Shown: in pieces, positions 1 to 17,417 of the stretch
Layout of the letters: each line of letters opens with the position of its first letter
Position numbering within the stretch: the stretch's first letter is position 1
DNA from: a virus
Virus record (IMG/VR): IMGVR_UViG_3300010883_000677
Location: 1-20,322 of that record
Direction: 5' to 3' (one strand)
DNA length: 20,322 nt
The notes under the pieces: model-generated
The model's database searches: none
Told to the model about the DNA's origin: nothing
Seen by the model: the letters and a program-made list of their open reading frames with translations, nothing else
Translations under genes and position numbers: made by a program

Positions 1-384
1 CAGACGATTTATACGCGGGGACAGTGACAGATACTCAGCGGAGTAGTTGGCTCCAACCCCACCACCAAGCATCAGCTGGTCAAAGGTGAACATGCCGTGG
101 CCCGATAGCGTTTCATCCCAGCCGGCACGGTGGCAGTTATACAAACCTAGACTGGTGTCAGCACCAGAGGCCCAGAGGTGTCTCCCAGCAGGCAGAGCCT
201 TCATCTCCAGGAAGAGGTCAATGAGTGCTTCTCTCTCACCAGGTTCATGTCCACCAGCCAGGGCCAGGTTGCCGTCCACCACTCTCTCCACTGTCTCTGG
301 CCAAGTCTCTTGGCGCCCATCATGAAGTGTGCGGCTGTAGGTCCTCTCATAGACCTCTTGACCTATTGGTCCCCAGGTTGGCAT
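1..384 (-). CDS. nrdJ: Class II (B12-dependent) ribonucleotide reductase, N-terminal part, cut by the window edge
   Basis: The reading frame stays open for 128 codons and runs off the left edge, so only the N-terminus is present. The enzyme would reduce ribonucleoside triphosphates to deoxy forms for phage DNA synthesis. Visible family signatures are [15 protein letters not shown] (residues 4-18), [11 protein letters not shown] (30-40), [11 protein letters not shown] (64-74), YNCHRAGW (82-89) and GGGVGANYS (107-115). These match monomeric adenosylcobalamin-dependent reductases of the Lactobacillus RTPR type. Cys84 sits where that family has the first cysteine of the redox pair (inference from position). 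The start is the ATG at 384: an in-frame TGA lies about 30 codons upstream with no other ATG after it in this frame, and GAGAGG precedes it. It follows the terminase small subunit after a 135-nt gap. Catalytic and C-terminal cysteines are outside the window. Confidence 0.9.
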
Positions 385-426
385 TGGGCAAGTCCTCTCA
401 AAGTCAGAGACAGACCTGCCCTGAGA

Positions 427-449
427 GGGATGGCCTGGAGAGCCATCCC
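427..449 (-). other. Hairpin in the leader of the reductase gene
   Basis: An 8-bp perfect inverted repeat (GGGATGGC / GCCATCCC) encloses a 7-nt loop. It lies in the 135-nt gap (385-519) between the terminase small subunit stop and the reductase start, about 43 nt before the ATG. No T-run follows, so it is not a classic intrinsic terminator; it could be an attenuator, a processing site or chance. Nothing else is evident in this gap. Confidence 0.35.
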
Positions 450-519
450 AGGCTCAGAGTGATGATGATGGTGTTCAGTGTGGCTGCTGGTGGCATCAGA
501 TTCTGATGCTGTCAGCAGT

Positions 520-984
520 TCAGTTGTCAGAGTCTTCCATGAACTGGTCCAGCTTTGACTTGGATTCCACGGCAGCAAGTCCAAGTCTCAAGCGGGCCTC
601 TGGGCTCAGGCCAAGCCTGTCCTCCAGGGCTGGGAGCATGGCCTCAGTGGAGATGAGGAGCCTGGCTGCTGGGTGAGCAACGTCCTGGCCTTGAGAGCCT
701 TCAGTGATGAAGCCCTCTTTGTTCAGGAGGTCAATGAGGTGGTGGCGACGGATCAGGAGTGAGACATAGCGCTCAATGACATAGGAGTCAGAGGCTGGCT
801 TGTAGACCTCAGCACCAAAGCTCCAGAGGTCTTCCCAGAGCTGGGTTGCCTCAGTGCGCTGGTTGTAGGCCAAGGACTTCAGAGCTTCAGGCAGAGGAGG
901 AGTTTCTCTGGCCAAGATGTTGGGAGCCACCTTGACCACGGCAGCGTCCCTGGAGTTGCCCTGAGGATTTGCTGCTGGTCTCAT
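520..984 (-). CDS. terS: Terminase small subunit, P27 family
   Basis: This 154-residue protein is probably the DNA-recognition subunit of the packaging terminase. The pattern matches the P27 (Terminase_4) family: an LWEDLWSFG helix (about 50-57), a YVIERYVSLLIRRHHLIDLL helical block (68-87), a GFITEGSQGQDVAHPAARLL stretch (91-110) and the closing RLGLSPEARLRLGL motif (123-136). Length is normal for the family. The ATG at 984 has GAGGAAG in front of it. Upstream lie the DnaA-box-like repeat cluster and the HNH gene, and HNH plus small terminase is a standard packaging pair in HK97-like phages. The large terminase does not follow directly; a ribonucleotide reductase does. Confidence 0.82.
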   Translation of the reverse strand: MRPAANPQGNSRDAAVVKVAPNILARETPPLPEALKSLAYNQRTEATQLWEDLWSFGAEVYKPASDSYVIERYVSLLIRRHHLIDLLNKEGFITEGSQGQDVAHPAARLLISTEAMLPALEDRLGLSPEARLRLGLAAVESKSKLDQFMEDSDN

Positions 985-1013
985 GGCTTCCTCACTCTTG
1001 GTGGTGGATCAAG

Positions 1014-1115
1014 TTGTGCACAGGGTCAAAATAAGATTCTTGGTTGTCCACAGGTTGTCCACAGGTTGCCCACAGGTTTGAGGGAGTTATCCCCCGAATT
1101 TGGAAGTTAACCACA
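1014..1115 (+). repeat. Cluster of DnaA-box-like repeats (candidate origin or terminase binding site)
   Basis: Three near-identical 9-mers repeat exactly every 11 bp: TTGTCCACA at 1044-1052 and 1055-1063, TTGCCCACA at 1066-1074. Weaker relatives are TTGTGCACA at 1014-1022, TTATCCCCC at 1087-1095 and TTAACCACA at 1107-1115, on the same strand and spaced about 20-30 bp apart. TTGTCCACA is the form preferred by actinobacterial DnaA. The cluster fills the gap (985-1169) between the HNH and terminase small subunit genes, so the alternative is a packaging site bound by the small terminase. An imperfect inverted repeat, ATTCAGAC against GTCTGTGAAT, follows at 1117-1137. Confidence 0.7.
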
Positions 1116-1169
1116 GATTCAGACTGTGTCTGTGAATATGGGGCGGGGGAGCCGAGGGGTCAAAGCCCC

Positions 1170-1547
1170 CTATGAGGCCCTTCCCCACACCCCTCCACCA
1201 CGAACAGTGGCAGCTCTGAGGGTTGCTTCCCTTGAGGTCTTGGCCTTGTGGCACTGGGTGCACAGGGTTTGGAGGTTGGTCTCAAGATCAGAGCCACCTC
1301 TGGAGAGCGGGACAACGTGATCAACTTGGCCTCCCCCTATGCCGAAGAAGCTGCAGCAATGATTGCACTGGCCTCCACCCTCTTTGTGGAGTAGCCTGCC
1401 CCTTCTTCGGGCTGCTCCATCTCCCGGAGCTGAAGCTCTCCTGGCCTTGGCCTGCTTGTCTTGATCAGCAGCATGTCCTGGGCATCTTGAAGCCCCACTG
1501 GGAGAGACAGCCAGACACCCTCCTATTGTGCAGGCCCTGGCTGTCAT
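1170..1547 (-). CDS. HNH endonuclease (packaging-associated type)
   Basis: A 125-residue HNH nuclease. An N-terminal zinc-like set (C6, C11, C22, H25) is followed by a basic linker, then the HNH core: CNHC at 61-64, VDHVVPL at 75-81 with the catalytic histidine in DH (76-77), N91, and CTQCHK at 96-101, giving the usual zinc knuckle plus the last H. The start is the ATG at 1547, preceded by AAAGGGACGCACC; an upstream in-frame ATG would run into the tRNA-like element and has no better ribosome site. HNH proteins beside a P27 small terminase commonly help the terminase cut phage DNA, so packaging is the likely role; a free-standing homing nuclease is the alternative. Confidence 0.82.
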   Translation of the reverse strand: MTARACTIGGCLAVSPSGASRCPGHAADQDKQAKARRASAPGDGAARRRGRLLHKEGGGQCNHCCSFFGIGGGQVDHVVPLSRGGSDLETNLQTLCTQCHKAKTSREATLRAATVRGGGVWGRAS

Positions 1548-1569
1548 GGTGCGTCCCTTTGTTAATAGA

Positions 1570-1666
1570 TCCTTGGGCTGGAGTTGCACCAGCGTCCTCA
1601 CTGAGGCTTGCCCTGATCAAAGGGCAGCCTCTCAGTGACGCTCTACTGCTTTGAGCTACGCAAGGA
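1570..1666 (-). ncRNA. tRNA-like RNA with an overlong anticodon arm
   Basis: Read on the minus strand, this 97-nt segment has the parts of a tRNA in order. Acceptor: TCCTTGC (1666-1660) pairs with CCAAGGA (1576-1570), 6 of 7. The D-arm is GCTCAAAGCAGTAGAGC (1656-1640), with TA before it. A TCACT/AGTGA stem sits where the anticodon stem belongs, then a 4-nt variable loop GGAC, then the T-arm GCTGGTGCAACTCCAGC (1593-1577), a 5-bp stem with a 7-nt loop. Instead of a 7-nt anticodon loop there are 31 nt that fold on themselves, capped by GCCCT-TTGATC-AGGGC. One extra base sits between acceptor and D-arm, and the T-loop has G where T55 is usual. It lies 22 nt before the HNH start. A decoding tRNA is unlikely. 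Confidence 0.55.
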
Positions 1667-1812
1667 ATGAAGTGAGGGCCTCTGATGCCTAGTTCAAGCA
1701 GCGTGATTCAACCACTTGGCTAGGGTCTGGTGAGGTCCTCACTGAGTGCCTGAGCTTGGCCACCTCATAGGGCTTGGCCCAGAGGCTCAGGAGGCTCAAG
1801 AGGAGTAGTTCT
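1667..1812 (-). ncRNA. Structured noncoding stretch between promoter-like site A and the tRNA-like element
   Basis: No convincing gene lies here. Two long-range inverted repeats are visible: CCTGAGC/GCTCAGG (7 bp) enclosing 1749-1791, with GGGCCAAGCCC inside, and CCTAG/CTAGG enclosing 1688-1724, with CAAG/CTTG inside. The 12-mer GTCCTCACTGAG (plus strand) occurs at 1735-1746 and again at 1594-1605 inside the tRNA-like element. The segment would be the first part of a transcript starting at site A and continuing through the tRNA-like fold into the HNH gene. Function unknown. Confidence 0.35.
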
Positions 1813-1820
1813 CCCTCTCA

Positions 1821-1852
1821 AGTAAGTATCCCCAGAATCTAGGAATCTGTGC
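1821..1852 (-). promoter_or_regulatory. Promoter-like element, copy A
   Basis: GCACAG (1852-1847), 16 bp, then GATACT (1830-1825) inside CTGGGGATACTTACTTGAG. It shares 23 identical bp with copy C. It begins right after the stop codon of the upstream gene and stands before the structured noncoding stretch and the HNH gene, 277 nt from that gene's ATG. See copies B, C and D for the shared pattern. Confidence 0.6.
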
Positions 1853-1853
1853 A

Positions 1854-2147
1854 CTATCTAGGAAGGGCCTTGAGGACAGTGGTGATGGCCTCAGGCCTGA
1901 AGGAGCGCCACTGTCCATGATGCTTAGGACCCCCGAAGGCAGTGATGCTAATGTTTCCATTCGGGTCAGTGACGACTTCATGGAACCTGAAGTGAGCACC
2001 ACGCTCACCACGAACCTTGAACTCTCTGCGCTTGATCAGCTTGTAGCGCTTCCCAGGTACGTCAAAGGTGTCCTCATAGAGCCAGCCAGCCTCTCTACGC
2101 TGGTCTCTTAGGCCCTGGCCCTTGATGGTGGATCGCTTGACTGTCAT
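1854..2147 (-). CDS. Small basic protein of unknown function
   Basis: A 97-residue protein with a basic N-terminus (many K and R in the first 40 residues), a mixed beta-like middle and a C-terminal GGPKHHGQWRSFRPE segment (about 73-87). That ending resembles small proteins common in actinophages, but I cannot assign a role. The ATG at 2147 overlaps the stop of the upstream gene by 4 nt (ATGA), and AGGGAG precedes it. Its TAG stop is immediately followed by promoter-like copy A, so it closes a transcription unit. Low predicted membrane content; a cytosolic role is likely. Confidence 0.72.
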   Translation of the reverse strand: MTVKRSTIKGQGLRDQRREAGWLYEDTFDVPGKRYKLIKRREFKVRGERGAHFRFHEVVTDPNGNISITAFGGPKHHGQWRSFRPEAITTVLKALPR

Positions 2148-2404
2148 TGGTCAGACTCCCTGTGATCCTCCAGAGCCAACTGGACCAGCTCCAGCTTCTG
2201 CTCAATGGTAGCTGGAAGAGGGATGCCAGCAGCTCTCTGGATCATGGTCTCGGTCTGGTCAGCCATGGTGATGGGATTCTGATCAAACAACTGAGCCAGA
2301 TCATCAATGGCCTCTTCCCAGGTCTCTGCGTAGCACAGGGCCTCAGCCACGATGCTGACGGCAGCAGTAGCCTGCTGGTCAAGCCTCTTGGATTCACTTG
2401 TCAT
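2144..2404 (-). CDS. Small acidic protein of unknown function
   Basis: An 86-residue, helix-rich acidic protein (EEAIDDLAQLFDQ, LELVQLALEDHRESD). I recognise no family. The start chosen is the ATG at 2404 because AAGGAGG sits 6 nt before it; an ATG 18 nt further upstream is in frame but overlaps that ribosome site. Its stop overlaps the next start by 4 nt, so the two are probably coupled. It sits downstream of the DUF932 gene. Confidence 0.68.
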   Translation of the reverse strand: MTSESKRLDQQATAAVSIVAEALCYAETWEEAIDDLAQLFDQNPITMADQTETMIQRAAGIPLPATIEQKLELVQLALEDHRESDQ

Positions 2405-2429
2405 ATCAAACCTCCTTGTCACTGCCTCA

Positions 2430-2457
2430 GGCCCTCACTCCAATAGGAGCAAGGGCC
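2430..2457 (-). other. Intergenic hairpin after the DUF932 gene
   Basis: GGCCCT/AGGGCC (6 bp) plus an inner CTCC/GGAG around a 4-nt loop, in the 78-nt gap between the DUF932 stop and the next start. There is no U-run on either side, so termination is uncertain; it could lower read-through or protect an mRNA end. Confidence 0.4.
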
Positions 2458-2482
2458 AGGAGGCTTGGTATGGGATGGAGGA

Positions 2483-3430
2483 TCAGACGCCAGCCAGCAC
2501 CCGGCCCTTCATGGCCTCAGCCATTGGCTGCTGCTCCTTCATGACCATCTCAACCTGGCGCTTGACCTGGGCCTTGCCCTCAGTGAAGTCATGACTCTCA
2601 GCTGACTGGACAGCATTGAAGGCAGCCCACGCAGTACCGGCAGCAGGACCATCAGACTCCTCAGACCAGTAGTAGCGCACGGCAGCCAGCTTGCGCTCGA
2701 AGGTGTTGATGGTCTTGGTGTGAGCATCCTCGCCAGGCTCAGGCATGATCTCAGATAGGATCTTCAGAAACTGAACGCCACTGATCTTGATTGACTTGAG
2801 CGTAGAGACACCCTCAATAAAGACAGCCATACGATCCATAACCTGAGCCAAGATCTGGCTACGGTACGCAAACATAGAATCGTGGTTCAAGGTGCGCCTA
2901 GCCGATATATGCGCCTTGGATAAAGGCAACTGGTTGGCACAGAAGAACCTGTGAGCCAGACCATGGCAGCCTGTCGCCCAGGTTGAGTTGAGGCTTCCTG
3001 TCCAGAGTAGGTGAGGCCTGATGGTGTCACCACCGCCAAGGTCAATCTCAGAGCCAATCTCCTGAGTGAGCATGACCTGCTCACCGTCGTCGATGACCTT
3101 TACCGCCGTAGTGCTCTCAGGGAAGAGGGCCTCAGCAGTCTCAAACAACTGGAGATAATTGGACTCAGGGAAGCTGGGGTGGACTACGTTGAGGACCTTG
3201 ATGGTGCCATCAGGCTGGATACGGTGGAGGATCTTCTGGATAGGGTCGCCCTTGTACTTGCCTTCTTTGATCGCAGGTGTCTCACCGCTCACCGTCAGAG
3301 GCTCTGAGTGCACCTTGAAGAGCGCTCCAGCCTCGATGGCTGCGTCAACTGCGTTAGTAGTGTCTACTGTCATATTTGATGCTCCTAGCATCATGTTGTC
3401 ATGGGCTCGGGTTCTTGCTGCCATTGTCAT
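2483..3430 (-). CDS. DUF932-family phage/plasmid protein
   Basis: A 315-residue protein whose layout fits the DUF932 / TIGR03299 group found in phages and plasmids: an N-terminal region ending in beta-rich SFPESNYLQLFETAEAL (about 85-101), a core with IRPHLLWTGSLNSTWATGC (137-155), then a helical part with NTFERKLAAVRYYWSEE (about 243-259) and a Gln/Lys-rich tail. The biochemical function of the family is not established; it often lies among replication and recombination genes. The ATG at 3430 has AGGAG at good spacing; an ATG two codons in is possible. A 69-nt gap separates it from the zinc-ribbon gene upstream. Confidence 0.75.
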   Translation of the reverse strand: MTMAARTRAHDNMMLGASNMTVDTTNAVDAAIEAGALFKVHSEPLTVSGETPAIKEGKYKGDPIQKILHRIQPDGTIKVLNVVHPSFPESNYLQLFETAEALFPESTTAVKVIDDGEQVMLTQEIGSEIDLGGGDTIRPHLLWTGSLNSTWATGCHGLAHRFFCANQLPLSKAHISARRTLNHDSMFAYRSQILAQVMDRMAVFIEGVSTLKSIKISGVQFLKILSEIMPEPGEDAHTKTINTFERKLAAVRYYWSEESDGPAAGTAWAAFNAVQSAESHDFTEGKAQVKRQVEMVMKEQQPMAEAMKGRVLAGV

Positions 3431-3499
3431 TGTGATCTCCTGGGTTGGTAGAACTTCTGAAGCTTCACCCTACCATGTCGGCAGGGCTTCTAGGCGAGT

Positions 3500-3661
3500 T
3501 CAGCTATATTCCTCCAGATATTTCTTGGAGGGCTTGGTGGAGCACTTGTGGCCCTTCGAGCATTGAACCTCTGCCTCGGGCAGTGTGTCCACCACTGCGT
3601 CAAGGCATCGGTTGCAATAGAAGCGCTCCAGGCCCGCTGGGACTGGTCCTGAGACTGTCAT
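3500..3661 (-). CDS. Tiny zinc-ribbon-like protein
   Basis: A 53-residue protein with CNRC at 16-19 and a second pair in CSKGHKC at about 38-44, the arrangement of a small zinc ribbon. The lysine-rich tail ends KPSKKYLEEYS. The start at 3661 has AAAGGAGGAGG in front and overlaps the previous stop by 4 nt (ATGA). It is the last of three tiny genes that follow the sigma factor in one coupled run. Zinc ribbons of this size often bind nucleic acid or a protein partner, but no target can be read from the sequence. Confidence 0.68.
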   Translation of the reverse strand: MTVSGPVPAGLERFYCNRCLDAVVDTLPEAEVQCSKGHKCSTKPSKKYLEEYS

Positions 3662-3798
3662 GCCTCCTCCTTTGCCCAAGACTGCTGCTGTAGCCTTTGA
3701 TACTTGGTGCCTGTGTGGAAGCCTCCACGCTTCCTGAGGATGGCCTGGCCAGCTCTGGAGATGCGCCTGGTGACCTTGGACTGCTCAGACATCGTCAT
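3658..3798 (-). CDS. Tiny basic protein of unknown function
   Basis: A 46-residue basic protein (VTRRISRAGQAILRKRGG) with a Gln-rich end. It starts at the ATG at 3798, inside the last codons of the gene before it, with GGGGAG upstream; the ATG at 3792 is an in-frame alternative. The stop overlaps the zinc-ribbon start by 4 nt. The basic helix suggests nucleic-acid contact, which is inference only. Confidence 0.55.
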   Translation of the reverse strand: MTMSEQSKVTRRISRAGQAILRKRGGFHTGTKYQRLQQQSWAKEEA

Positions 3799-3964
3799 GG
3801 GGATCATCTCCCCAGCCTGCCCTGAGGGCCTGGAATAGGTCCTTGGTTGGGTTCATGGGCTTGGGCTCAGGGTCCAAGGGGATCACACCAGGAGTGGAGA
3901 AGAGCCTTGCGGGCTTGTCCTCATCGGTGAGGTGGTCATATGGCTTGCGCTTGTTGTTGGTCAT
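3785..3964 (-). CDS. Small protein of unknown function following the sigma factor
   Basis: A 59-residue hydrophilic, proline-rich protein starting MTNNKRKPYDHLTDEDKPARLF and ending in an acidic tail. The start at 3964 overlaps the sigma factor stop by 4 nt (ATGA) and has AAGGAGGATCAGC before it, a strong ribosome site. Tight coupling to the sigma gene could mean a linked role, for example a regulator of that factor, but no motif proves this. Confidence 0.62.
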   Translation of the reverse strand: MTNNKRKPYDHLTDEDKPARLFSTPGVIPLDPEPKPMNPTKDLFQALRAGWGDDPHDDV

Positions 3965-4701
3965 TGCTGATCCTCCTTGAGGATGCTTCTGAGGGCCTTG
4001 AGAGCCCTGTTGCGTATTCGGTTCACTCCTGAGCGGTCAATCCCGAGGGCCTGACCAACCTCATAGTCATTCATGCTATCACCATAAGTGAGCCCATAGG
4101 CCATCTCCAGGACCATTCTGTCCCTGGGAGCAAGGCATTCAAGCAGCTCCTCCAAGTCAGGCTGGTCCTCTGTGATGTTCGGAGCAATCCAGTCTTGCCT
4201 GGAGAACTGGCTGACGTTGAAATCACCATCAGCAGGCTCATTGTCACTGTCCTCACCACTCTCCATGGCATCCAGGCTCCAAGTATCTGTCACCAGGTTG
4301 TGGATGGCATCGAAGGTTAGGTGATCCATATCAGAGACCTCTCTGGCCTCCAGGATTGTGGCAGTGCTGGACACTGCTGACCAGTATTGCTGGAGCCTGG
4401 TCTTCGGGACGGTGGCTCCTTGGTAGTAGTCACCAGCCCTGTTGAGGATGGTGCCTTTGATGAGCAGGAAGACAAAGGTCTCAAAGGGATGGCCTTTGGA
4501 AGGGTCAAACCTCTGGAGAGCTTCAAGCACAGCCAGCCGGGCATCCTGGAGGAAGTCCTCAGGGTCCAGATGGGTGGTAGTTACCTTCTTCACTGCTGTC
4601 TTGATAAATGGGTCCACTCTGTCCATGATAGCAGCCTGAGCGGCGCTGTCTCCAGCTTTGGCAGAGAGGATGATGGATGTTGGAAGGTTGTCTGGATTCA
4701 T
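3961..4701 (-). CDS. Sigma70-family RNA polymerase sigma factor
   Basis: A 246-residue protein with two sigma domains. The region 2 signature is DPEDFLQDARLAVLEALQRF (46-65), followed by DPSKGHPFETFVFLLIKGTI (66-85), the core-binding and -10 recognition part. An acidic linker (about 140-165) follows. Region 4 is LAPRDRMVLEMAYGL (about 190-204) and a helix-turn-helix near YEVGQALGIDRSGVNRIRNRALKALR (about 213-238) that would read the -35. Region 1.1 and most of region 3 are missing, as in alternative or phage sigma factors. It would redirect host RNA polymerase to phage promoters; the GCACAG/GATACY elements in this window are candidate targets (inference). The ATG at 4701 has CAGGAG upstream. 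It lies 53 nt after the endolysin stop. Confidence 0.83.
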   Translation of the reverse strand: MNPDNLPTSIILSAKAGDSAAQAAIMDRVDPFIKTAVKKVTTTHLDPEDFLQDARLAVLEALQRFDPSKGHPFETFVFLLIKGTILNRAGDYYQGATVPKTRLQQYWSAVSSTATILEAREVSDMDHLTFDAIHNLVTDTWSLDAMESGEDSDNEPADGDFNVSQFSRQDWIAPNITEDQPDLEELLECLAPRDRMVLEMAYGLTYGDSMNDYEVGQALGIDRSGVNRIRNRALKALRSILKEDQQ

Positions 4702-14432: not shown

Positions 14433-14978
14433 TCACCCACTGTCTTCTCCCTTGTAGCGGTCATCAAAGACTGCCTTGTCTTCTTCCATGCTCCACTGGA
14501 GCAGAGCCATAGCGTGCCACGCCACAGCAGTCATATGGTGAGAGCCAGAAGGGCCATCTATGTCCTCACCGCTCAGCCACGCCAGAGCATGACGCTGGAG
14601 AGCAGCATACGACTTCGACCACTCGAAGCCCTTGCGCCAGTTGTTGGACTGGTACTTGCCCACTGTGCCATTGCCGCCATTCTTCCCATAGTGCTCAGCC
14701 AGAGCCTGGAGAGCTTCAGGAGGAATGAGGTCATGGCGTTCCAGCTTGGTGCCTTTGACTCCACCAGTGGTGGAAGTGGAGGAGGTCTCTCCTGGTGAGG
14801 TCAGCTCCACTGGAGCGCTCTTGAGTTGCTCCAACTCATTGAGCCTGGAGGCCCTTCCCAGAGCAACGCTCTGGTCACTGAAGGCCTGGTCCTGAGCAGT
14901 GATGTCATCCTGGTTGGTGACCATCCAACGTTGATCGGACACCCTCACCACCATCCATGGGTGGGTGAGGTCAATCAT
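14433..14978 (-). CDS. dATP/dGTP diphosphohydrolase-like protein (DUF5664 type)
   Basis: A 181-residue protein. After a variable N-terminus it shows the family block: KGTKLERHDLIPPEAL (75-90), a Gly-rich turn, NNWRKGFEWSKSYAALQRH (112-130), GEDIDGPSGSHH (137-148) and an AVAWHAMALLQW helix (151-162). The His and Glu/Asp residues would hold metal. Relatives are named for splitting dATP or dGTP; in 2-aminoadenine phages a related activity trims the dGTP pool. The start is the ATG at 14978, overlapping the nuclease stop by 4 nt with GGAG upstream; a GTG nine nt earlier is less likely. Its role here is probably adjusting nucleotide pools. Confidence 0.66.
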   Translation of the reverse strand: MIDLTHPWMVVRVSDQRWMVTNQDDITAQDQAFSDQSVALGRASRLNELEQLKSAPVELTSPGETSSTSTTGGVKGTKLERHDLIPPEALQALAEHYGKNGGNGTVGKYQSNNWRKGFEWSKSYAALQRHALAWLSGEDIDGPSGSHHMTAVAWHAMALLQWSMEEDKAVFDDRYKGEDSG

Positions 14979-15757
14979 GCCAACCACTCCTCAGGATCAA
15001 TAGCATCACCAATGACAGTCTTGGCAATGGACTTGTCCCACTGCCAGACCTTGATGAGGGCAGTGAAGACCTCCATCAGCTTGTCACGATCAAAGAGGAC
15101 AGGGATGAATTGCCACCCGTCAGGGACAATGTGGAGAACAGCCGCACCGGCCAGCTCAGGCATGGGAGTCTTGTTGCCATCCTTGTCCATGAGCCAAGGA
15201 GCAGCTCCATAGGCATTGAGCTGGAGAGCCACCTCCGGGAAGACACCAGACCTGGTGGTCTTGTTGTCACCAATGATGACCTCATCTCCAATCTTGGCAA
15301 TCCAGTCAAAGCTGCCAGCGTAGGCAGGATCATCACTCCAGACAGTACCCTCCAAGTGGAGGAACTCTGGCTGGAAGGTATCCACAAAGGACTGGAAGTG
15401 AGTGGCGAATATCTCCATATCTGGATGGAGCTTGCCAGTCGGCACCCCTCCAGCCATGTCCTCAAAGATGACATGAGCATCAGTGCCTCTGGCGGCAGCA
15501 GCTCCGGTGTTCCGCATGGGCGCCCTCTTCAAGTAGTCAATGGCACCCTGCTTGTCTCCTGCCAGGGCCATGCCTATCCATGAGCCTGCATGATCCACCG
15601 CTGTCTCAGCCACCAGCTTGGCAGCCCAGAACTTGAGGAATGGCTTAGGCAGCATATCCAGGACAGAGGTGACTCCTGGGACTTTGTCTCCTGTCTCTGG
15701 GTGAACGTAGAGACGAGACCCTCCACGCTTGATGGTTGCGACTTTCGGTGTTGTCAT
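14975..15757 (-). CDS. RecB/Cas4-like PD-(D/E)XK exonuclease
   Basis: A 260-residue nuclease of the RecB-like group. Motifs: GTDAH with H95, GSFD with D151, IIGDNKT with D164 and K166, and QLNAY with Q179 and Y183. I see no cysteine cluster for the iron-sulphur site of true Cas4, so it is better called RecB-like. In phages such enzymes resect DNA ends for recombination or process replication products. The ATG at 15757 has AAAGGA upstream; the open frame continues further but has no supported start and crosses promoter-like copy D, which lies 26 nt before this ATG. First gene of the replication cluster. Confidence 0.82.
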   Translation of the reverse strand: MTTPKVATIKRGGSRLYVHPETGDKVPGVTSVLDMLPKPFLKFWAAKLVAETAVDHAGSWIGMALAGDKQGAIDYLKRAPMRNTGAAAARGTDAHVIFEDMAGGVPTGKLHPDMEIFATHFQSFVDTFQPEFLHLEGTVWSDDPAYAGSFDWIAKIGDEVIIGDNKTTRSGVFPEVALQLNAYGAAPWLMDKDGNKTPMPELAGAAVLHIVPDGWQFIPVLFDRDKLMEVFTALIKVWQWDKSIAKTVIGDAIDPEEWLA

Positions 15758-15776: not shown

Positions 15777-15833
15777 TCAATTAGGTATCCCCAGAAGGGG
15801 TTGAGACTGTGCGCCAGCGTTGAGTTTATCCAT
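15777..15833 (-). CDS. Possible leaderless 18-codon peptide
   Basis: An ATG at 15833 stands exactly 7 nt after a good -10 (TATACA, 15846-15841), the spacing seen at the other mini-genes. The frame (MDKLNAGAQSQPLLGIPN) ends just before the RecB-like ribosome site and runs through copy D. The -35 is weak. It may be a regulatory peptide or a chance frame. Confidence 0.25.
   Translation of the reverse strand: MDKLNAGAQSQPLLGIPN
15784..15812 (-). promoter_or_regulatory. Promoter-like element, copy D
   Basis: GCACAG (15812-15807), 17 bp, GATACC (15789-15784). A CCCC-TTCT-GGGG hairpin sits in the spacer. It is 26 nt before the RecB-like ATG, which leaves room for a short leader with the AAAGGA ribosome site. 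Confidence 0.62.
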
Positions 15834-15890
15834 CTAAAGATGTATAGGCCTAGTTGCCAGATTAGGGCATGTTCCTGCCTTCCCACCAAA

Positions 15891-15922
15891 GCGAAAGAAA
15901 CCCCCCGACCGAAGCCGGAGGG
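15891..15922 (-). terminator. Intrinsic terminator T1 (UUCG loop)
   Basis: On the minus strand, CCCTCCGGC-TTCG-GTCGGGGGG forms a 9-bp stem with two G-T pairs and a UUCG tetraloop, followed by TTTCTTTCGC. On the plus strand the same bases give A-C mismatches, so it works for leftward transcription. It closes the gene at 15968-16222. Confidence 0.85.
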
Positions 15923-15967
15923 TTCCTAGAGCCCTAGCGGGCGCCCCTTAAAGCTTGCCCGTGGCAC

Positions 15968-16222
15968 TCATGGTGCTACAAGGAACCCGTCGGCGTCAGT
16001 AGCCCAGCCTTCGGCGTCGATGTAGTCGACCATGTAGGCCAGAATCGCCACCCCGCCGGTAGGCATCAAGGGATCGTCGTCGCTTTCCGCAGCGATCTCG
16101 CAAAGGACTGAGGCTTCCCAAGAGTCGTGTCGAGGTGCACCTATCAAAGCGTCGATTGCGTCGTACGCAGCGTTAAGTTCTTCCGCTGTGGCGGCCATCG
16201 GGTTGTTCGGGGTGTTGTTCAT
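15968..16222 (-). CDS. Leaderless small acidic protein, cassette 1
   Basis: An 84-residue acidic protein (MNNTPNNPMAATAEELNAAY at the start, a EIAAESDDDPLMP middle, ending DADGFLVAP). No family recognised. The ATG at 16222 is chosen because a sigma70-like promoter ends 7 nt before it (-10 TATAGT, 16235-16230), so transcription should begin at or near the A of ATG; no ribosome site is present. It ends just before terminator T1, so it is an independent one-gene unit. CpG content is high. An early host-takeover or defence-blocking role is possible, by position only. Confidence 0.65.
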   Translation of the reverse strand: MNNTPNNPMAATAEELNAAYDAIDALIGAPRHDSWEASVLCEIAAESDDDPLMPTGGVAILAYMVDYIDAEGWATDADGFLVAP

Positions 16223-16229
16223 GAATAGA

Positions 16230-16258
16230 ACTATACAGGCACCACACACCAGCAACAA
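16230..16258 (-). promoter_or_regulatory. Leaderless promoter of cassette 1
   Basis: -35 TTGTTG (16258-16253), 17-bp spacer, -10 TATAGT (16235-16230), then 7 nt and the ATG at 16222. About 70 bp around it are nearly identical to the cassette 2 promoter. Confidence 0.75.
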
Positions 16259-16269
16259 CCTCGACACAA

Positions 16270-16287
16270 AAGAAACCCGAAACTTTC
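16270..16287 (-). repeat. 18-bp upstream box, copy 1
   Basis: GAAAGTTTCGGGTTTCTT on the minus strand. It is identical at 16589-16606 and 17030-17047, each time 47-48 bp before the ATG of a leaderless gene and 12 or so bp beyond the -35. Fixed spacing suggests a binding site for an activator or repressor. Confidence 0.65.
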
Positions 16288-16299
16288 CCACCAAACAAA

Positions 16300-16331
16300 A
16301 CGAAAGAAACCCCCCGACCGAAGCCGGAGGG
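16300..16331 (-). terminator. Intrinsic terminator T2 (UUCG loop)
   Basis: Same 22-nt hairpin as T1, base for base, followed on the minus strand by TTTCTTTCG. It closes the gene at 16365-16541 just before the box and promoter of cassette 1. Confidence 0.85.
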
Positions 16332-16364
16332 TTCCTAGAGACCTAGCGGGCGCCTATTTGGCAA

Positions 16365-16541
16365 CTAGGCCATATCGGCGGTGTGCAGGTGAGCTATCAG
16401 TAGGCCGCTCTTAGTTTCCGAGACTGCCCGGTTGCAGACTGAGCAGAGACCGCTGTGGATTTCGCCGGACCCTGCACATGCTGGGCGATCCATGCCGACT
16501 GTCTTGGTGGGGTGCTGGTGGGCGGTGCGTGTGGTGTTCAT
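16365..16541 (-). CDS. Leaderless small zinc-finger-like protein, cassette 2
   Basis: A 58-residue protein. Residues 19-37 read RPACAGSGEIHSGLCSVCN, with C22, H29, C33 and C36 as a likely zinc site, and H49 and H52 near the end. It resembles very small actinobacterial zinc proteins, but the partner is unknown. The ATG at 16541 stands 7 nt after a TATAGT -10, so the mRNA is probably leaderless. A longer frame runs through the promoter but is rejected, because the same promoter DNA serves cassettes whose frames differ. Flanked by T2 downstream and T3 upstream. Confidence 0.68.
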   Translation of the reverse strand: MNTTRTAHQHPTKTVGMDRPACAGSGEIHSGLCSVCNRAVSETKSGLLIAHLHTADMA

Positions 16542-16548
16542 GTATAGA

Positions 16549-16577
16549 ACTATATAGGCACCACACACCAACACCAA
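16549..16577 (-). promoter_or_regulatory. Leaderless promoter of cassette 2
   Basis: -35 TTGGTG (16577-16572), 17-bp spacer, -10 TATAGT (16554-16549), 7 nt, ATG at 16541. Differs from the cassette 1 promoter at only a few positions. Confidence 0.77.
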
Positions 16578-16588
16578 CCTCGACACGA

Positions 16589-16606
16589 AAGAAACCCGAA
16601 ACTTTC
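16589..16606 (-). repeat. 18-bp upstream box, copy 2
   Basis: Identical to the boxes at 16270-16287 and 17030-17047; 48 bp before the cassette 2 ATG. Confidence 0.65.
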
Positions 16607-16613
16607 CCACCAA

Positions 16614-16646
16614 AGCGAAAGAAACCCCCCGACCGAAGCCGGAGGG
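16614..16646 (-). terminator. Intrinsic terminator T3 (UUCG loop)
   Basis: Third copy of the same hairpin (16646-16625) with its T-rich tail. It closes the unit made of the genes at 16738-16983 and 16658-16741. Confidence 0.85.
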
Positions 16647-16656
16647 TTCCTAGAGC

Positions 16657-16701
16657 CCTAGGGCGAGGTCCTACCCCCGACGGCACCTAGGGCGAGGTCC
16701 T
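16657..16701 (-). repeat. 16-bp direct repeat pair
   Basis: CCTAGGGCGAGGTCCT at 16657-16672 and 16686-16701, 29 bp apart start to start, inside the 27-codon frame. Related CCTAGCGGGCGCC runs follow T1 and T2. Confidence 0.7.
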
Positions 16702-16741
16702 CTTCCGCCCGGTAGATGTCTGGTGTTGCTGTGTTGTTCAT
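16658..16741 (-). CDS. Possible 27-residue peptide coupled to cassette 3
   Basis: The ATG at 16741 overlaps the stop of the cassette 3 gene by 4 nt. The peptide begins MNNTATPDIYRAEEDLALGA; its MNNT start echoes cassettes 1 and 2. It contains the 16-bp direct repeat and stops just before T3. The coupling favours translation, but the length is small and no homology is recognised. Confidence 0.4.
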   Translation of the reverse strand: MNNTATPDIYRAEEDLALGAVGGRTSP

Positions 16742-16983
16742 CGGTGGTCTTCAGAGTCGATGTGGCCTAGGCATCCATCGTGTAGCTGGGCTGCGTCCCA
16801 TTCGCCCGCCCAGAAGAAGGAGTCCTGCTCGAAAGCGTTCTCCAGGTAACCGTAGTATCCGCTGCGGTCAGTCTCGTTGCCGACATAGGTCACGTCTGGG
16901 TCGGGGAGGTTCGAGAAGTCAAGAGCTTCTCTCCACTGGGTCCAGGTTTGGCCTGCGCTGTTGATGTGTGTGGTGGGTTCCAT
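16738..16983 (-). CDS. Leaderless small acidic protein, cassette 3
   Basis: An 81-residue, acidic, aromatic-rich protein (WTQWREALDF, GYYGYLENAFEQDSFFW, then a His/Asp-rich end). Function unknown. The ATG at 16983 lies 7 nt after the -10 TACGGT, giving a leaderless mRNA as in cassettes 1 and 2, and the 18-bp box lies 47 bp upstream. The protein itself is not similar to those of cassettes 1 and 2, so the shared parts are regulatory, not coding. Confidence 0.65.
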   Translation of the reverse strand: MEPTTHINSAGQTWTQWREALDFSNLPDPDVTYVGNETDRSGYYGYLENAFEQDSFFWAGEWDAAQLHDGCLGHIDSEDHR

Positions 16984-16990
16984 GTAGATA

Positions 16991-17019
16991 ACCGTACACA
17001 GTGAGTGGTACGAAACCAA
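16991..17019 (-). promoter_or_regulatory. Leaderless promoter of cassette 3
   Basis: -35 TTGGTT (17019-17014), 17 bp, -10 TACGGT (16996-16991), 7 nt, ATG at 16983. The spacer is unlike the other two, so the hexamers and spacing are conserved while the rest is not. Confidence 0.6.
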
Positions 17020-17029
17020 CGTCAGGTAG

Positions 17030-17047
17030 AAGAAACCCGAAACTTTC
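17030..17047 (-). repeat. 18-bp upstream box, copy 3
   Basis: Identical to copies 1 and 2; 47 bp before the cassette 3 ATG. Flanking bases differ, so conservation is limited to the box. Confidence 0.65.
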
Positions 17048-17088
17048 TTCAGGCCCCGTACCGAGTCCTCAGCTGGAACTCATGGCTG

Positions 17089-17145
17089 CTATTTGACCCA
17101 AAGGATCGTGGACAGAACGATAAGACCCATAAGTAGAGGGAGCAT
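17089..17145 (-). CDS. 18-residue hydrophobic micropeptide
   Basis: MLPLLMGLIVLSTILWVK: one continuous hydrophobic segment long enough to enter a membrane. The ATG at 17145 shares one base with the stop of the 37-codon gene (TGATG), and GAGGAGG lies 7 nt upstream, an excellent ribosome site for a frame this short. Role unknown. Confidence 0.5.
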   Translation of the reverse strand: MLPLLMGLIVLSTILWVK

Positions 17146-17258
17146 CAAGACACCTCCTCAGCGCTACGGCGACGCCCGGCCCAGAATGGGCTGAGACTGT
17201 GCGCTGCTGTCTCTTCTTTGATGGTGGTGGTGGTTGAGCTGGCCTGCGTGCGGGTCAT
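17145..17258 (-). CDS. Leaderless 37-residue basic peptide
   Basis: The ATG at 17258 lies 7 nt after -10 TACAGT, the same spacing as the three cassettes. The peptide starts MTRTQASSTTTTIKEETAAH and ends in an Arg-rich AGRRRSAEEVS. Its middle (HSLSPFW) is encoded by the decayed promoter-like copy E. It is coupled to the membrane micropeptide after it. No family recognised; it could be a leader peptide for that micropeptide. Confidence 0.5.
   Translation of the reverse strand: MTRTQASSTTTTIKEETAAHSLSPFWAGRRRSAEEVS
17174..17202 (-). promoter_or_regulatory. Promoter-like element, copy E, -10 part missing
   Basis: GCACAG (17202-17197), the TCTCA after it and TTCTGGG match copy D, but the -10 position reads CCGGGC. 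A GCCCA-TTC-TGGGC hairpin is kept. It is probably a decayed copy, or shows that the left half has its own function. Confidence 0.35.
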
Positions 17259-17265
17259 GTCCAAC

Positions 17266-17293
17266 ACTGTATCAGCCTGAGGAGCAATGCCAA
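17266..17293 (-). promoter_or_regulatory. Leaderless promoter next to the long inverted repeat
   Basis: -35 TTGGCA (17293-17288), 16 bp, -10 TACAGT (17271-17266), 7 nt, ATG at 17258. The -35 is only 8 bp from the edge of the 116-bp inverted repeat, so that repeat could act as its operator. Confidence 0.65.
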
Positions 17294-17301
17294 CCTCTCT
17301 G

Positions 17302-17417
17302 AACCCATGACGTTATGACGATAGAGAGGTCATTATGAGGTCTCTACCAAAAAGAGATAATTATAGAATTCGGTAGAGACCAAAAATCATCTCTGTATCG
17401 TCATAACGTCATGGGTT
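17302..17417. repeat. 116-bp long inverted repeat with AT-rich core
   Basis: Perfect 22-bp outer arms, 17302-17323 and 17396-17417 (AACCCATGACGTTATGACGA followed by TA and its complement). Inside are imperfect arms and a perfect 10-bp pair GGTCTCTACC (17339-17348) / GGTAGAGACC (17372-17381). The centre (17349-17371) is nearly all A and T. It separates the late-operon terminator from the first early-type promoter. Candidate roles: operator, replication origin or recombination site. No coding frame is evident. Confidence 0.85.

Follow-up and report, generated by a model that had tools for sequence, protein, structure and literature searches.

We analyzed a tandem array of small transcription units in the IMG/VR virus record IMGVR_UViG_3300010883_000677, the whole of which (20,322 bases, G+C 55.6%) is called the window below. 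The array occupies the minus strand from position 17293 to 15896, with its units in the order 4, 3, 2 and 1, and lies upstream of a gene for a Cas4-type exonuclease. The original prediction, made by a model from the sequence, described three units that each combine an 18-base pair (bp) box, a TTG-17-TAnnnT promoter ending 7 nucleotides (nt) before an ATG, an unrelated open reading frame (ORF) and an identical UUCG-loop terminator, and exact copies were indeed found. A repeat search located the box (AAGAAACCCGAAACTTTC in plus-strand letters) at 16270–16287 in unit 1, 16589–16606 in unit 2 and 17030–17047 in unit 3, with no further match at three or fewer mismatches in the 20,322 bases of the window and none expected in 100 shuffles. 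A 32-nt stem-loop whose loop reads C(UUCG)G, detected by repeat search and RNA folding (energies between –25 and –29 kcal/mol, z between –3.1 and –3.6), recurs unchanged after gene 1 (15896–15927), gene 2 (16305–16336) and gene 3 (16620–16651).

A pattern scan for TTGnnn-16/17-TAnnnT-7-ATG gave four matches in the window, all inside the array: TTGTTG-17-TATAGT in unit 1 (16230–16258), TTGGTG-17-TATAGT in unit 2 (16549–16577), TTGGTT-17-TACGGT in unit 3 (16991–17019) and TTGGCA-16-TACAGT in unit 4 (17266–17293). The –35 elements accordingly start at 16258, 16577 and 17019 with a spacer of 17 and at 17293 with a spacer of 16, and the distances from the box to the –35 element in units 1 to 3 are 11, 11 and 10 nt. 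On neither strand did the rest of the window contain a match at gaps of 3 to 12 nt, and the chance expectation at gap 7 averaged 0.2 per window. In all four units (4/4), the –10 element thus stands 6–7 nt ahead of the start codon, and no Shine-Dalgarno (SD)-like sequence was found at the start of any unit. The predicted fourth unit therefore holds, with the 7-nt gap, a matching promoter and neither the box nor a copy of the terminator. The promoter of unit 2 carries a palindrome, TATAGTTCTATA, across the –10 element and the start; among the window promoters, an inverted repeat is clear in unit 2 only and weak in the box of unit 3. The array is real and non-random.

We compared the regulatory shells, that is, the sequences that surround each gene, which had been described as constant. 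Identity over the 42 nt ahead of the ATG is 0.90 between units 1 and 2 and 0.24–0.62 in the other five pairs, so that constancy holds for units 1 and 2 and, as regards box and terminator, for three units, and fails for the other pairs. In short, the promoter is common to two units, box and terminator to three, and the spacing to four.

The enclosed genes, or cargo, show no homology to one another. The unit 1 ORF (84 amino acids (aa), 15968–16222; codon score 0.38) and the unit 3 ORF (81 aa, 16738–16983; 0.29) are acidic orphans with an isoelectric point (pI) of 4.1, the former with 16 D/E and one K/R, and both score like known genes (0.367 +/– 0.134). The score also supports ORF 3b (27 aa, 16658–16741; 0.30), which was read from the sequence and begins with MNNT at an ATGA overlap. 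The unit 2 ORF (58 aa, 16365–16541; 0.09, best frame) is Cys/His-rich and, judged by eye, zinc-finger-like. The unit 4 ORF (37 aa, 17145–17258; 0.12) has the best score of the three frames on its strand and is followed by ORF 4b (18 aa, 17089–17145), a hydrophobic reading frame read from the sequence at an overlapping stop/start, TGATG, after GAGGAGG. With its strong SD sequence at that overlap, ORF 4b is a possible membrane micro-protein. The start of ORF 3b, ATGAACAACACAGC, resembles the first codons of the shell and is perhaps a remnant of another cassette. Two repeats within the array were also observed: an exact 16-bp direct repeat (16657–16672 and 16686–16701) just ahead of the terminator after unit 3, and an inverted repeat matching at 15 of 16 positions (15847–15862 and 16356–16371) that flanks unit 1 with its terminator and could reflect chance or a rearrangement.

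Searches for relatives of the cargo returned little. With tblastn in phages, there was no match for ORFs 1 and 3 and two weak matches (E 0.3) for ORF 2; a viral scan for relatives of ORF 1 found none. Against Pfam and PHROGs, the window cargo gave sub-threshold matches only (best E 0.034, ORF 2), and there was no match in NCBIfam or PADLOC. Since the PADLOC models describe defence rather than anti-defence systems, the latter result neither supports nor excludes an anti-defence function. Single-sequence AlphaFold2 models reached a mean predicted local distance difference test score of 65.9 for ORF 1 and 55.9 for ORF 3 and were not used for a fold search.

We further scanned 12 records of cultured relatives, chosen as relatives of the exonuclease, as relatives of those, or from weak blastn matches to the window shell, for the gap between TTGnnn-16/18-TAnnnT and an ATG. 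On the coding strand, a gap of 6 nt occurred 29 times and one of 7 nt 27 times, that is, 56 of 62 gaps were exactly 6 or 7 nt; the remaining 19 gap lengths between 0 and 20 nt together gave six matches, and three matches lay on the opposite strand. A start placed in this way is termed leaderless-type below. Nine to eleven such starts were counted in each of Honk, Cen1621 and Zeta1847, and four or five in each of the EH phages and Gretchen, integrases included. In total, 70 leaderless-type starts were listed from 12 records including the window and L086 (described below); Gretchen, which is near-identical to Percival, and the integrases were left out of the codon, SD and shell-comparison statistics. 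The blastn matches of the window shell in phages were mostly at chance level (best E 0.03, Big4, in the terminator part only) and nonetheless pointed to Gretchen, Percival and Floof.

The sequence behind these starts is also distinctive: in 59 leaderless-type genes, A+C makes up 84% and T 2% of codons 2–6, whereas the corresponding values for 169 SD-led ORFs are 67% and 12% (P = 3e-18). This bias constitutes independent support, because the scan pattern ignores the sequence past the ATG. GGAG, AGGA or GAGG at positions –18 to –4 occurred in 0 of 61 leaderless-type genes, an absence partly forced by the –10 pattern. A terminator-like hairpin was detected 30–150 nt upstream in 14 of 65 cases among the leaderless-type starts, in 10 of 145 among SD-led starts and in 19 of 660 among random points. 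A GTATAG-NN-CTATAC-type palindrome with arms of 5–7 nt covers the –10 element in 11 of 11 non-integrase units of Percival, Gretchen and Floof, and units 2 and 1 of the window carry nearly the same –10 palindrome; Honk, Cen1621 and Zeta1847 mostly have GTGTTTACAC or GTGTAAAC in the spacer. These –10 and spacer palindromes are putative operators. Judged from sequence, the results suggest leaderless mRNAs across much of this group, and we infer a leaderless start for the window units as well. The predicted leaderless-type, separately terminated mini-genes with a common regulatory shell were thus seen both in the window and in relatives. In Zeta1847 (L134, NC_047992), all 11 leaderless-type starts lie 15–48 nt downstream of the annotated starts and in frame with them; the annotated starts look wrong, as their first codons would fall inside the promoter.

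Arrays were sought at the exonuclease loci of relatives, namely 75 viral-contig loci, 22 genome loci and ten earlier loci, some on the same contig, by scanning L006–L112 for repeats of at least 18 bp spaced 120–2,000 bp apart. One other multi-unit array of this kind was found at the same locus, in L086, a distant relative whose exonuclease is 37% identical to that of the window. Its four units, on the far side of the repeats of L086 and on the strand opposite to its exonuclease, each consist of the promoter GAGGTTGGTTTTCTAAACAAACCCCCCTATATT, 6 or 7 nt and then ATGAACAACACCACAACAAC. The shells are 88–100% identical, first codons included, and occur in exactly four copies in the 31,857-base record; a blastn search with the L086 shell in phages gave two chance-level matches in a Lactobacillus prophage. 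All four cargo proteins (264, 77, 175 and 70 aa) start with MNNTTTT and are entirely different from those of the window, and terminator-like hairpins lie between the units. The 175-aa protein is a 2OG-Fe(II)/AlkB-like oxygenase. The 264-aa protein shares 48% identity across about 70 aa with leaderless-type genes of Honk and Zeta1847, and its shell is at most 0.10 identical to theirs. In L025, a 20-bp promoter-like repeat, GGGGTTGACAAGCGTGCTGG, occurs in two copies, 1548 and 794 bp before the exonuclease.

A wider scan for GGTTGG-N19-22-TATANT-N6-7-ATGAACA matched 13 viral stretches, with arrays only in the contig of L086 and in L005, and none of 396 actinobacterial genomes; two further viral scans gave 11 and 28 stretches, mostly unrelated or single matches. 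L160 holds nine leaderless-type mini-genes in 4.4 kb (1–4354), one of them SprT-like; L152 holds a pair of units whose 65-bp shells are identical and whose cargo differs; L158 and L161 hold three leaderless-type units each. In these records, which are partly fragments, the exonuclease profile had no match in L160, L158 and L161 and a weak one in L152, and the primase had no match in any of the four. The cassette design therefore seems to extend beyond phiC31-like phages. Several mini-genes of L160 have an inverted repeat around the –35 element.

The original prediction further proposed an exchangeable locus in which cargo changes between constant shells. This is supported in part by the four-unit array of L086 with its different cargo, and by the one cargo family found under unrelated shells. 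Swapping in the phage of the window itself was not demonstrated, because L005, its only close relative and the sole other contig with box and terminator, is 100% identical over 3,897 bp and supplies no independent data. Fifteen groups of cargo recur across records, one of these being confined to Percival and the near-identical Gretchen; the 26 singleton starts include all four of the window, and SprT-like proteases are among the leaderless-type cargo of relatives. A 58-aa cargo gene lies before the integrase in Honk and its homologue behind it in Zeta1847, and a 244-aa cargo gene lies behind the integrase in Cen1621 and its homologue before it in Zeta1847, which indicates that cargo moves between places and stays leaderless-type. 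Pooled shell identity was 0.75 within genomes for non-homologous cargo (n = 188), 0.63 between genomes for homologous cargo (n = 33) and 0.54 otherwise (n = 1609), and the nearest shell belonged to the gene's own genome in 24 cases versus 7, with 2 ties, although this comparison is biased. The pooled means agree with shells that track the genome rather than the cargo, but the per-gene test given below was indecisive and no such claim is made.

We interpret the array, with a probability of about 0.72, as a set of leaderless accessory-gene cassettes that are insulated from one another, regulated together and subject to rapid turnover of their cargo. Each transcription unit in the tandem set would hold one gene, or a gene with a coupled micro-ORF, and a host-type sigma promoter whose start point would be the A of the ATG, so that the mRNA would lack a leader and be translated without an SD sequence. 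The A+C-rich first codons may assist such translation; CA repeats past the start codon are described as enhancing leaderless translation in the consulted part of a review (PMC9031893). Units 1–3 share the box upstream of the promoter, each gene ending at the identical UUCG terminator, and one phage regulator probably binds the box (units 1–3), the –10 palindrome (units 1 and 2) and the spacer palindromes of relatives, switching the units together. The array may be a locally dense version of a leaderless gene set that many relatives carry dispersed through their genomes, its cargo being fast-turnover accessory genes that would be gained and lost as cassettes beside a conserved inverted repeat upstream of the exonuclease. 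The shared regulator, the cassette recombination, the early timing and the cargo function are what we infer from this arrangement.

Several observations weigh against this interpretation. The trait is uneven among relatives, with no leaderless-type start in Liebe or SpecialK and one each in phiMiGM15 and phiC31, and an upstream terminator was detected at only 22% of leaderless-type starts. Within the array, the codon scores of ORFs 2 and 4 are weak, unit 4 has the spacing alone in common with the others, and unit 3 only box and terminator. The box was found in no other phage except L005, apart from a single chance-looking match in an AT-rich contig; as it is confined to the array and L005, its putative function is read from this array. 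In the per-gene comparison, shells were nearer to those of their own genome than to those of orthologues in 19 of 33 genes by mean (19 versus 14), and a cruder version gave 17 versus 15. The original prediction had named, as evidence against itself, related phages with the same genes in the same order and diverged shells, and part of this picture is present, since several orthologous leaderless-type genes stand under diverged shells.

Other explanations must be set against the cassette interpretation. We consider it unlikely that recent tandem duplication alone, followed by divergence or replacement of the cargo and with no regulatory role for the box, produced the array. The likeness of units 1 and 2 across the promoter (90%), together with their common terminator and flanks, would fit duplication, as would the inclusion of the same first codons in the L086 shells, beyond regulatory need. 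However, unit 3 keeps the exact 18-bp box and the terminator though its promoter spacer differs, so that the box has outlasted its surroundings; the cargo bears no trace of a common origin, and the 6–7-nt gap recurs across many relatives. It is very improbable that the transcripts are leadered or non-coding, with incidental ATGs at 7 nt and small RNAs among the units: orphan cargo and the poor scores of ORFs 2 and 4 speak for this, and the 56 of 62 gaps at exactly 6 or 7 nt, the A+C-rich codons past the ATG and the codon scores of ORFs 1 and 3 speak against it.

Two further possibilities concern when and for what the cassettes are used, and each is possible, though less probable than not. The units might be prophage-expressed morons, switched on in the lysogen (for example, for superinfection exclusion or host fitness) rather than early in lytic growth. 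Many relatives carry integrases, and single genes with their own promoter and terminator are the classic moron form, which counts for this explanation; the operator-like palindromes over the promoters of relatives, which suggest repression in the lysogen, and the location beside the exonuclease, where the early region presumably begins, point the other way, although neither is decisive. The other possibility, an anti-defence or host-takeover island as originally predicted, gains from cargo that is small, orphan, partly acidic (ORFs 1 and 3) and variable at a fixed locus. However, the window cargo has no defence-related match, acidity is widespread among the small proteins of such phages, the sole L086 cargo with a known fold is the oxygenase, and SprT-like proteases are found among the leaderless-type cargo of relatives. 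A bolder extension of the cassette interpretation is that promoter, operator and first A+C-rich codons form an exchangeable 'plug' of a genome-wide leaderless regulon in many actinophages; the plug would evolve in concert within a genome, cargo would be swapped by recombination at the plug, and leaderless initiation would keep the genes translated when host or phage shuts down SD-dependent initiation. We regard this extension as speculative and unlikely.

The window represents part of the genome of a phiC31-like actinophage. A near-DNA search with the whole window found no match among 50,697 phage records. The exonuclease (14975–15757, minus strand), which occupies the position of phiC31 gp1 and is preceded by an SD-like AAAGGA, is at most 56% identical, and the primase at most 45% identical, to proteins of Arthrobacter, Microbacterium, Curtobacterium and other actinophages. 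The window also encodes a Gp3-like recombination directionality factor, and the phiC31 order of Cas4-type exonuclease, this factor, primase and polA is present; no serine integrase or repressor was seen in the searched part of the 20-kb fragment. In the early region of phiC31 (NC_001978), the order is repressor, gp54, exonuclease, gp3, primase and polymerase. The window resembles phiC31 in gene order, its array sitting at the place before the exonuclease, and differs in that phiC31 has one leaderless-type start only, before int.

At the downstream end of the array, the original prediction had placed a possible fifth unit (15777–15846, minus strand). The spacing stands, with TATACA at 15846–15841 and, 7 nt on, an ATG at 15833 opening an 18-codon ORF. 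There is no TTG 16–18 nt upstream of TATACA, and the ORF scores 0.058 against 0.367 +/– 0.134 for known genes; unit 5 was therefore rejected as a cassette, having no –35 element and no coding signal. This stretch more probably forms the 5' end and leader of the transcript of the exonuclease gene, which would be SD-led with a leader of about 76 nt. A 25-bp repeat, 92% identical between 17180–17204 and 15790–15814, reads AHSLxPFW both within the unit 4 ORF and in the sequence that directly precedes the exonuclease and shares its frame; among the fetched relatives, it was found in none beyond L005 and one partial match in L066.

The upstream border of the array is an inverted repeat at 17302–17417 with 33-nt arms, 91% complementary, around an AT-rich centre; it is long and nested and folds at –67 kcal/mol (z –11). 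Among 94 relatives, 51 have an inverted repeat of at least 14 pairs within the 300 bp that precede the exonuclease, compared with 11 of 262 random segments; the median centre lies 154 bp before the exonuclease ATG. In the window, none was found in the 300 bp before the exonuclease, and the repeat lies about 1.6 kb upstream with the array between the two. The array may thus be an insertion beside a conserved inverted-repeat element. This repeat is a candidate origin or operator.

In leaderless genes of actinobacteria, the –10 element lies about 7 nt before the start codon with no SD sequence; leaderless transcripts of these bacteria were reportedly described by Cortes in 2013 and Shell in 2015, two studies cited in PMC11855218. 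The window units share this spacing and the lack of an SD sequence, and differ in that a phage sets many such genes under one repeated shell. Phage morons are likewise added genes that are independently transcribed, whereas the window shells are copies of one another and their messages apparently leaderless. A close phage parallel is found in Cluster K mycobacteriophages, where start-associated sequences (SAS) and extended start-associated sequences (ESAS) are described as a motif that recurs ahead of numerous unrelated small genes within a genome, the ESAS holding a putative SigA-like promoter with an inverted repeat and the consensus varying between subclusters; the SAS is a conserved 13-bp ribosome-binding region, and the mRNAs of these genes are thus leadered (PMC3203893, PMC11373665). 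The window is similar in its repeated motif upstream of unrelated small genes, but its units lack an SD sequence and any SAS-type site and apparently start at the ATG, their promoters reach to 7 nt before the ATG, and they form a tandem array with copied terminators. Adephagia gene 90 is reported as a predicted leaderless phage transcript, and the Adephagia ESAS contain putative promoters (PMC11373665). In Microbacterium phages of clusters EC, EF, EG and EI, short motifs are repeated upstream of the starts of non-structural genes; unlike in the window units, they either precede the start by 14–30 bp or coincide with the ribosome-binding site (PMC7302621). For the EH phages (Percival, Floof) and Zeta1847, the consulted part of that paper names no motif of this sort, and the word 'leaderless' is absent from the paper. 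Our searches of the open-licence literature found no leaderless promoter set reported for these phages. The known kind is the repeated start-associated promoters of actinophages, and what is new here is that the units are apparently leaderless, terminated and in tandem.

The cassette interpretation is directly testable in cultured phages such as Honk, Cen1621, Zeta1847 and Percival. If it is correct, the simple promoter-to-ATG rule would make it possible to find many uncharacterized small genes in actinophages and to correct their starts, and the shells would help to show which genes share a regulator and how these phages load accessory genes.

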